Source: Nanobdellota archaeon
Lineage (GTDB): Archaea > Nanobdellota > Nanobdellia > Woesearchaeales > GW2011-AR9
Reading direction: 5' to 3'
DNA: 36,014 bases
Assembly: GCA_018824365.1 (NCBI GenBank)
Contig: JAHJGQ010000091.1
Location: 1-36,014, forward strand
Below are positions 28,654 through 31,340 of this stretch, one piece after another (positions within the stretch are counted from its first letter, which is position 1; every line of letters begins with the position of its first letter). Both the position numbers and the translations under genes were made by a program. The notes beneath the pieces are model-generated. The model ran no database searches. It was not told the origin of the DNA and saw only the letters and a program-made list of their open reading frames with translations.

Positions 28654-29697
28654 TTAACTTAATCTCACTTTTAATAACTCTTTTGAAGCTCTTGTTAAGA
28701 TTCTTGCTTTGTTGTTGAAAATGATGGTATCTTCAATTCTCAATCCATATTTCTGGGGAAAATAAATTCCCGGTTCTATAGTAAAAACCTGGTTTTTTAT
28801 TACTTTTTGCTTATTTTCTCGTGAAAAAGAGGGGAATTCATGAATATCGATACCAAGACCATGACCAAGCTTATGAATGAAGAAAGATGAAAGATTACCC
28901 AAATTTTTTCGAACATTTTCTTCTAATGAAAAAAAATGACTTCCAGAAGCAATATGTCTTATCGTCTTTGTTTGGATCTCTGATAATTTATAGTAGAGTT
29001 GTTTTTCTTCTTCACTTATTGTGTCTAAATACAATACGCGGGACATGTCAGAGCAATAATTTTGGTAACGAGCGCCAAAATCGAGCAACAAAAAACCTTT
29101 TCTTAGCTTTTCAGAGGAAGTTTGATGATGAGGAATAGCAGCATTCTTACCGGAGGCCACAATCGTCGGAAAAGAAAGATCTGCGCCTTGTTCACGAATA
29201 TTCTTTTCTAAGAAAAAAGCCACATCTTGTTCTGTACGGATCTTTTTAAGAGAAAAATTGGCTACAAGATCATTAAATGAATTGGTGGTTATTTGGCATG
29301 CATGAGATATCTTATTAATCTCTTCAGGAATCTTTTGTGAACGCAGTTTAAGTAATACCAATGAGATATCGATAAAAATTGCTTTAGGAAATGCTTTCTT
29401 TAATTTTTCATAATAAGATAAAGGGATATTTTCTTTATTTATCCCAATTTTCATATTTTTTTTATCCGCTATTTCCTTTTCCCAATCTTTATTCAAGTTT
29501 ACTATTTCAATATTTTTTAATTTTGGCTTTAAATCAAGCTCAGACAGATAAAAATAAGCATCATTTGGTGAAATTGTAAGGATTGCTTTAGAAGGTTTCA
29601 TCTGAGTAAAATAAGTTATGTTAGAATCAGGAGAAATCAAAAAAGCCAAATCTATTTCTTCCCTATTAAGATATTTCTGGAAAATTTTTAATTTCAT
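28654..29697 (-). CDS. Xaa-Pro aminopeptidase-like M24 metallopeptidase
   Basis: LLDFGARYQNYCSDMSRVLYL, HKLGHGLGIDIHEFP, FTIEPGIYFPQKYGLRIEDTI. Start placed at the internal ATG 29697 (MKLKIFQKYLNREEIDLAFLISPDSNITYFTQ) rather than 29937. Confidence 0.88.
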   Translation of the reverse strand: MKLKIFQKYLNREEIDLAFLISPDSNITYFTQMKPSKAILTISPNDAYFYLSELDLKPKLKNIEIVNLNKDWEKEIADKKNMKIGINKENIPLSYYEKLKKAFPKAIFIDISLVLLKLRSQKIPEEINKISHACQITTNSFNDLVANFSLKKIRTEQDVAFFLEKNIREQGADLSFPTIVASGKNAAIPHHQTSSEKLRKGFLLLDFGARYQNYCSDMSRVLYLDTISEEEKQLYYKLSEIQTKTIRHIASGSHFFSLEENVRKNLGNLSSFFIHKLGHGLGIDIHEFPSFSRENKQKVIKNQVFTIEPGIYFPQKYGLRIEDTIIFNNKARILTRASKELLKVRLS

Positions 29698-29741
29698 GGA
29701 TATGATAGTTTTTTGCTGCTTAAAAAACCTTCTGGTATTTG

Positions 29742-29999
29742 GTATGTAATAGGTCAGCTTGCACGGCACGATTATTTTTGGCTCAAATTCATATAGGACA
29801 CAAAAAGTGCTGAAAGAGCATTCGCACAAAAAAGAAACTACTTTTTTGGCATCCCAGAAAAATCGTTGTTTTTCTGTGGACATAACACGGACTAAAGTCT
29901 GGCTCTTTCTGCTCTTTTTCGTGTAAAATCTTAACAACTTAATTTAAGCTCAACTTGCCAAAAATGTACCTCCATTGGCAAAGCAGACCTATTACTTAC
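29742..29999 (-). ncRNA. Candidate structured non-coding RNA of unknown class (strand tentatively minus)
   Basis: Nested complementary segments: 29746-29755 with 29986-29995; 29781-29789 with 29941-29949; 29798-29819 with 29902-29924; local hairpins at 29828-29847, 29855-29876, 29890-29899 and 29955-29981. Confidence 0.65.
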
Positions 30000-30137
30000 A
30001 GTATTTGCCTCTAGACTTTTCCTAGCTTTAATGATCATATTTTGATTATTTTAAAATACATTTATTGTTTTTCATAGAACTAAGAACTTTAAAAAAACCC
30101 CAAAACAATTATAAACACCAAAAATAAGGTTTTTGAT

Positions 30138-31340
30138 ATGAAAAAAGTGGTGCTACCTAATGGTCTAACGATTATTTTTGAAAAGAAAATGGGTAATTCG
30201 GTAGTTATAGAAGTTATGGTTAATGTAGGTAGTAATATCGAGAAAAAAAATGAAAGGGGAATTTCCCATTTTCTTGAACATATACTTTTTGAGGGTACTG
30301 AAAAAAGGCCAAACAATAGAGAGATTTCCAACGAAATTGAAAAGATAGGTGGAGATTTTAATGCTTATACTTCTTACGAGAAAACGTGTTTTCATATAAA
30401 AGTTCTAAAAAAATATTTCAATACCGCAGTAGATGTATTAGCTGACATCATGCTTAATTCTTTGTTCAGAGAAGAAGATATCACTAAAGAAAAGAATATA
30501 GTCCTAAAAGAGATTGATATGATTCTTGATGAGCCAAAATACAGCCAATGGATATTACTGCAAAAAAATCTTTTTGAAAAACACCCCTGCCGTTATCCAA
30601 CTTATGGTGATGAAAAGATTATCAAAAATCTTAACAGAAAAAAAGTAACTGATTTTTTTAACAAGCATTATGTCGCAAGTAATGTGGTTATTTCTATAGT
30701 GGGGGATGTTGATAATTGGAAAGAGGAAGTGATGAACAAGTTCACTCTCAAAAAAGGAAAGACGTTTAAGCATCCAATGGTAGAAGAACCAAAATCTAAA
30801 AATAATAAAATTAAGAAAATTAAGAAAGATATCATTAACACGCACATAGTTATTGGTTTTAAGACGGTCCCTAGAATAAATAAAGACTCTTATGTTCTTG
30901 ATGTCATCAACGGAATATTGGGCAGAGGACAAAGCGGAAAAATGTTTACAGAAATAAGAAGCAAAAAAGGTCTTGCTTATGATGTAGGTACCCAAAGTTT
31001 GACAAATAAGAGTTTCGGATATTTTGCTGTCTATGCGACAATCGATAAGAGAAATATTAAACAGGTCAAAAACATAATTTTACAGGAATTGGATTATTTG
31101 AAAAAGATATCTCAAAGTGAATTGAAAGAAGCGAAAGATTATATTGAAGGTGATTATCTTTTAGAGATAGAAGATTCACAGAAAGTTGCTGATCAGTTAT
31201 TGGCTTGGGAACTGATGGGAGATGCAAAACTGATGAAAGATTATGTTAAGAATGTCCGTAATGTTGGAATTTCTGACGTGAGAAGAGTAGCACAAAAGTA
31301 TTTTAACAATTATACAATGATAATGCTGGAAGGGAAATAA
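30138..31340 (+). CDS. M16 family zinc peptidase
   Basis: 400 aa; HFLEHILFEGT (HxxEH), RSKKGLAYDVGT. Confidence 0.92.
   Translation: MKKVVLPNGLTIIFEKKMGNSVVIEVMVNVGSNIEKKNERGISHFLEHILFEGTEKRPNNREISNEIEKIGGDFNAYTSYEKTCFHIKVLKKYFNTAVDVLADIMLNSLFREEDITKEKNIVLKEIDMILDEPKYSQWILLQKNLFEKHPCRYPTYGDEKIIKNLNRKKVTDFFNKHYVASNVVISIVGDVDNWKEEVMNKFTLKKGKTFKHPMVEEPKSKNNKIKKIKKDIINTHIVIGFKTVPRINKDSYVLDVINGILGRGQSGKMFTEIRSKKGLAYDVGTQSLTNKSFGYFAVYATIDKRNIKQVKNIILQELDYLKKISQSELKEAKDYIEGDYLLEIEDSQKVADQLLAWELMGDAKLMKDYVKNVRNVGISDVRRVAQKYFNNYTMIMLEGK

Follow-up and report, generated by a model that had tools for sequence, protein, structure and literature searches.

Fold and genomic context of the M24-M16 gap

The window analyzed here, a contig of 36,014 nucleotides from a Nanobdellota archaeon (JAHJGQ010000091.1), carries an unusually long gap between divergent genes for an M24 and an M16 peptidase, and the question raised by this locus is whether the elaborate fold of positions 29742-29999 belongs to an unannotated RNA gene, as a sequence-only reading had proposed, or to something else. 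The gap does measure the 440 bp attributed to it, provided that M24 starts at the ATG at 29697. Every helix named in that reading could be located in the sequence, the apical hairpins among them. Complementarity reaches 89% across 19 nt for the outer arms (29742-29760 with 29981-29999) and 89% across 18 nt for the rod (29802-29819 with 29902-29919). The fold is also non-random, both strands having energies far below those of dinucleotide-shuffled sequences (minus strand -82.4 kcal/mol, z -4.8; plus strand -83.6 kcal/mol, z -6.9; none of the 200 shuffles equalled either value), with z values of about -5 to -7 for complementarity.

No Rfam family matched within the window at the gathering threshold, in agreement with the earlier view that the sequence does not represent SRP RNA or RNase P. 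When the threshold was relaxed, the gap and 13 related loci yielded insignificant matches only, nothing credible among them, and no tRNA or tmRNA was found in the window.

Within the same GTDB family, 23 M16 genes were found in the divergent arrangement with M24. Of these 23 relatives with a measurable gap, 12 have a short syntenic gap, about 70-120 bp (counted as 60-108 bp, to which 12 bp are added if M24 begins at the ATG equivalent to the window's 29697), AT-rich and without such a fold; the fold energies of the 12 short gaps range from -1.7 to -21 kcal/mol, versus -105 kcal/mol for the gap of the window. The helices are thus not conserved in relatives at this locus, an outcome that the first reading had itself named as refuting its RNA gene. 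Several further relatives have larger, folded gaps of 225-793 bp that are unrelated to that of the window, and none of these larger gaps contains the 58-bp unit described below. The M24-M16 gap seems a tolerant landing site and a likely insertion hotspot. The gaps of loci L256, L258, L259, L262, L265, L267, L278 and L283 hold inserts of 355-793 bp, mostly strongly folded and devoid of the 58-bp unit.

Two nested repeats

A search of the window's own genome (1.23 Mb in 122 contigs, 96% complete) with positions 29742-29999 returned 22 matches, which form two groups. The first group (contigs C28, C73 and C119) consists of the outer parts alone, continuous from GGCTCAAA to GTAAAATC, while the second (C54, C119:8150 and C86) consists of the inner part alone, as standalone relatives. 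The existence of outer-only and inner-only copies shows that a 135-bp element has entered an outer one of ~121 bp (Table 1). Four further copies of the outer element reside in this genome, at C28, C73, C119 and C14, three of them without insert; the copy at C14 shows the same outer/inner left junction as the window, followed by an internal deletion, and because this junction is shared the composite itself must have moved to a second place. Nesting also recurs, as a related inner element lies inside a different outer-type element in genome G006 (L051). Some assemblies break exactly at the outer-element repeats.

The stretch is therefore very probably made up of mobile DNA elements nested in one another, in an archaeon of the Nanoarchaeota/Woesearchaeota type: the central stem of an IS66-family MITE holds a 135-bp element with a 58-bp double-hairpin tip. 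An RNA gene with a conserved housekeeping or regulatory role and an SRP-like rod, located between M24 and M16, would also fit a fold that is strong and covarying and an outer part whose G-U asymmetry points to the minus strand. However, what had been taken for a single gene resolves into two nested repeats, each found separately elsewhere in the same genome; the sequence is multicopy, its flanks differ among copies and its outer and inner parts are separable, and these features, together with the short unfolded gaps of the 12 relatives and the failure to match an Rfam family, leave such a gene extremely improbable. The expectation that the helices covary was borne out, although their conservation lies in mobile families and not at the M24-M16 locus.

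Table 1. Position of the nested elements and flanking genes in the window.
Feature	Position	Strand	Basis
M24 (Xaa-Pro-type) peptidase gene, flank	28654..29697	-	PF00557, E 1.2e-47
Target-site duplication, left, 8 bp, GGTATTTG	29734..29741	.	7/8 identical to 30000-30007
Outer element (probable MITE), left half: terminal inverted repeat GTATGTAATAGGTC, core CTTGCACGGCACGATTATTTTTGGCTCAAA	29742..29789	-	Copies C28, C73, C119, C14; strand by G-U asymmetry
Inner insertion, 135 bp, deletion derivative of a larger hairpin element	29790..29924	.	Absent from C28, C73, C119; boundaries ambiguous by 2 bp
58-bp double-hairpin unit	29823..29880	.	Model R1, 88.5 bits; covariation; empty sites in relatives delimit the same unit
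Hairpin 1: CGC, A bulge, 8 bp, loop AAACTA, GCA	29823-29851		
Hairpin 2: TCC, 8 bp, loop TCGTTG, T bulge, GGA	29852-29880		
Third small hairpin of inner element, CGGAC TAAA GTCTG	29888..29901	.	Alignment of inner copies; stem differs among copies
Outer element (probable MITE), right half: core GTGCC(T/A)CC..TTGGCAAAGC, terminal inverted repeat GACCTATTACTTAC	29925..29999	-	Copies; model R2 match 29939-29999, minus strand
Target-site duplication, right, 8 bp, AGTATTTG	30000..30007	.	Sequence
M16 peptidase gene, flank	30138..31340	+	PF00675, E 9e-39

The outer element and its relation to IS66

The outer element, which spans 29742-29999, is delimited by terminal inverted repeats of the form GTA(T/A)GTAATAGGTC. 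In most copies these repeats start with GTAA (GTAAGTAATAGGTC), the left end of the window copy reading GTATG. The target duplication of the window is inexact (7/8); exact 8-bp duplications were found around the copies at C28 (CTTTAAGT), C73 (AAAAAACC) and L166 (GGTTTTTA), as well as around three outer copies in G060 (GGTTAAGA, ATTAAAAT and ATGACAGA). The inverted repeats of IS66 begin with GTAAG and its direct repeats are 8 bp long (PMC11946415), the latter length being given also in PMC3281130.

Moreover, the outer terminus GTAAGTAATA(G/T)GTCAGC matches that of a complete IS66 transposon in G020 (GTAAGTAATAAGTCAGCA), with 16/18 positions at the right end. This transposon (L321) displays GTAAGTAATAAGTC at both ends around the transposase, followed at the right end by AGCA, and its ORF (L321:442-1752) was identified as an IS66 transposase (NF033517, NCBIfam, 213 bits against a cutoff of 180, with which Pfam agrees). 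A second, independent terminus match links an IS66 element of G033 (GTACGTATTTAGTTG; terminus GTACGTATTTAGTTGC) with the outer-type element of G006 (L323/L051). Because of these two independent matches, the varying outer stems include the termini of different IS66 lineages.

IS66 transposases were detected in 6 of the 49 family genomes. None was found in the window's own genome (96% complete) or in most carriers of the outer element, the assemblies being incomplete drafts; an IS66 transposase in the own genome is in any case no requirement for relic copies. A search by terminus pattern for an autonomous element in G000 (the window's genome), G007, G018, G026 and G033 gave no widely spaced pair at one mismatch, and the autonomous partner was recovered through the IS66 family search, in G020. 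Judging from the termini and the duplications, an IS66 transposase supplied in trans would move the outer element by way of its GTA-starting inverted repeats and leave the 8-bp duplication.

These features are shared with IS66-family MITEs, namely inverted repeats starting with GTA(A), an 8-bp duplication, no transposase, and termini common to a full IS66 transposon. The outer elements differ from them in that their interchangeable termini enclose a core that is structured and conserved, and in hosting further hairpin elements. Of note, a third repeat of the window's genome (C93:11117-11303, L159) has GTAAGTAATAGGTC termini, an unrelated interior and the flanks CTATTTTTCTT/CTATTTTTCTG; it is a further MITE of this terminus family.

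The conserved core of the outer element (CTTGCACGGCAC ... GTGCCTCCATTGGCAAAG) lies amid replaceable flanking stems and covaries, 95.3% of its 32 pairs being paired and 12 pairs changed on both sides, values that are inflated by the relatedness of the copies. The corresponding model (R2) matched 16 of the 49 family genomes. The minus-strand preference proposed in the sequence-only reading is absent from the fold energy of the window copy, but it is supported across 16 copies of the outer element, in which G-U pairs number 44 on the minus strand versus 19 on the plus strand and the minus strand is lower in energy in 12 of 16 (Wilcoxon p = 0.014, for copies that are not independent). Such a bias could mean that a transcript of the outer element matters. 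The elements might then be both mobile and active as RNA, with the core (CUUUGCCAAUGGAGGCAC / CGUGCCGUGCAAG, minus strand) as a putative functional domain of that RNA, such as a protein-binding or processing signal, that travels with IS66-type MITEs. The persistence of the core while its flanking stems are swapped, its covarying pairs, the G-U asymmetry and the occurrence of R2 in a third of the genomes would all suit this explanation; however, the inverted repeats and the 8-bp duplication account for the spread without any RNA, and the supporting statistics come from kin copies, so that we consider a dual role somewhat unlikely.

Structure and distribution of the 58-bp double hairpin

Within the inner element, the 58-bp unit consists of two adjacent hairpins of 29 nt. 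The alignment of inner copies of relatives gave the geometry of a 3-bp foot, a bulged base, an 8-bp stem and a 6-nt loop, the second hairpin abutting the first in inverse orientation (the window loops being CAACGA/AAACTA). Among 74 distinct 58-mers, drawn from draft metagenome assemblies and including related copies that inflate the covariation statistics, 97.1% of the cells are Watson-Crick while the stem sequences change freely. Pairing holds in 96% of cases for the feet, or lower stems (77% after shuffling), and in 98.7% for the upper stems (74% after shuffling). The non-Watson-Crick combinations in the 1628 cells of these 74 copies amount to 16 G-U and 11 A-C. Because G-U pairs are rare and there is no strand bias, pairing is probably kept at the DNA level and not by selection on an RNA.

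The loops of both hairpins are drawn from one small set: CAACGA, AAACTA, AGAATA and CAAAGA. Kissing of the two loops was considered and rejected, their complementarity being 3.91 of 6 positions versus 3.89 for shuffled partners; the loops do not covary.

The model of the unit (R1) matched 41 of the 49 family genomes; the highest number of matches in one genome, both strands included, was 62, which corresponds to about 30 copies. In a phylum-wide sample it was present in 49 of 279 genomes, all within the same order or class, and the named carrier contigs belong to 'Nanoarchaeota archaeon', 'Candidatus Woesearchaeota archaeon' and, in one case, 'archaeon'. A single marginal match (E 0.007) came from the remaining 52 genome contigs and the 23 viral contigs; for the viral contigs (14 and 9 pattern matches) the covariance model confirmed the double hairpin in none. 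Bacterial pattern matches in genome contigs were dismissed as chance, save for the marginal one at E 0.007, and phage relatives had chance 35-bp matches only. Archaeal chromosomes were the sole location of the unit in our searches. Double-hairpin elements in archaea were not described in the open-access literature searched, and the 58-bp units apparently constitute an undescribed, widespread double-hairpin family in Woesearchaeota-type archaea.

Insertion sites of the unit

Empty sites, which concern copies in G068 and G026 and not the window's own unit, demonstrate that repeats and coding DNA receive the unit as one self-contained insert that leaves no target duplication. Of six near-identical repeats aligned in G068, two are longer than the others by exactly 58 bases, which lie between TTTTATA and TATACAAAG and are not accompanied by a duplication. 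A helicase gene of G026 contains an insert of 57 bp that is in frame and open, lacks a duplication and is absent from G062, G063 and G007. This insert (L037:1498-1554) adds about 19 residues (AQKNNDFSGVPQTPGVCQH) and is the sole proven in-frame case. Copies were also observed inside other copies (L041 and L223).

The unit probably inserts into tRNA genes as well. An apparent tRNA-His of G064 has it in the D arm, with none in that of G024, and D-arm insertions occur in the apparent tRNA-His of four genomes in total (L023 in G005, L031 in G014, L066/L227 in G064 and L069/L226 in G061), these tRNAs having been read by eye. ARAGORN did not call the interrupted tRNA-His genes.

Possible routes of spread

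We propose that recognition of the unit depends on its shape, the likeliest forms being an extruded cruciform or single-stranded DNA in a folded state, and that some enzyme or replication process would move it. Tentatively, the double hairpin may represent a minimal mobile element of a new class, recognised by nothing but its fold (bulged hairpins of 29 nt whose loops come from a fixed set), with tens of copies in most members of this archaeal family, repeated insertion into mobile elements, coding frames and tRNA-His, and possibly removal at the RNA level in the tRNA.

Bulged hairpins in inverse pairs and duplication-free insertion recall Y1 systems, and Y1_Tnp genes are present in 17 of the 49 genomes, including that of the window. 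A Y1 (IS200/RAYT-like) transposase could thus move the unit as single-stranded hairpins, in the manner of REP/BIME sequences. Yet Y1 genes show no association with the unit, occurring in 4 of 11 copy-rich genomes versus 13 of 38 others, and G036, G068, G011 and G029 have many copies and no Y1, which makes this route improbable. The own genome holds two Y1 (IS200/RAYT-like) transposase genes or fragments, at C34:392-736 and C8:1348-1560.

Spread through RNA, with the unit reverse-spliced or retrotransposed as a folded transcript and removable from tRNA precursors like archaeal introns, would explain how four genomes tolerate copies in the D arm of their apparent tRNA-His, where an unspliced insert should be harmful; a missing duplication was likewise argued to reflect an RNA route for the Allomyces elements (PMC2800124). 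On the other hand, G-U pairs are too few and strand bias is absent (16 vs 11 of 1628 cells), no canonical bulge-helix-bulge could be drawn at the tRNA junctions of L023 and L031 (by eye only), and the helicase insert of G026 stays in frame, as though translated. We regard this route as unlikely.

Comparison with known systems

The closest known kind is found in the mitochondria of Allomyces and other fungi, namely the double-hairpin elements (DHE; Paquin et al. 2000, as cited in PMC2800124 and PMC7218506), which reportedly are without flanking duplications and are retained in transcripts (PMC2800124). Both kinds have two adjacent hairpins of tens of bp, are optional in their presence, and insert inside genes too, with no target-site duplication. 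The archaeal units differ in their chromosomal location, their strict 29+29 nt, their bulged bases and small set of 6-nt loops, and in arms that change freely yet stay complementary. By analogy, the 58-bp unit may work like a fungal DHE; we do not claim common descent or sequence kinship.

Rickettsia palindromic elements (PMC10969869) are also small palindromic sequences that insert in frame into protein genes, but they are bacterial and about 150 bp long, whereas here the units measure 57-58 bp and one in-frame case is proven. REP/BIME palindromes (RAYT/Y1) resemble the unit in being imperfect hairpins in inverse pairs with many copies per genome; in contrast, no GTAG/CGTC foot tag and no association with Y1 transposases were seen here. 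The repetitive hairpin-forming elements of sponge mitochondria (PMC2800124) are likewise multicopy tandem hairpins, double and multiple, although in them the stems are conserved and the loops vary, whereas in the archaeal unit the loops are conserved and the stems vary.

The 58-bp double hairpins rank among the smallest discrete mobile units, spreading without the ordinary scar of transposition, and arms that change sequence yet stay paired offer a test case of how DNA palindromes move and repair themselves. For the annotation of small archaeal genomes they carry a warning, namely that strong covariation and a large folded gap can be the mark of mobile DNA and not of RNA genes. In longer forms of the inner element (L034, L022, L019 and L051), a second module, a conserved hairpin, lies upstream (..GTCATAAAAATGCG..CGCATTTTTAGGAC..), in which the double-hairpin plan is repeated on a larger scale.
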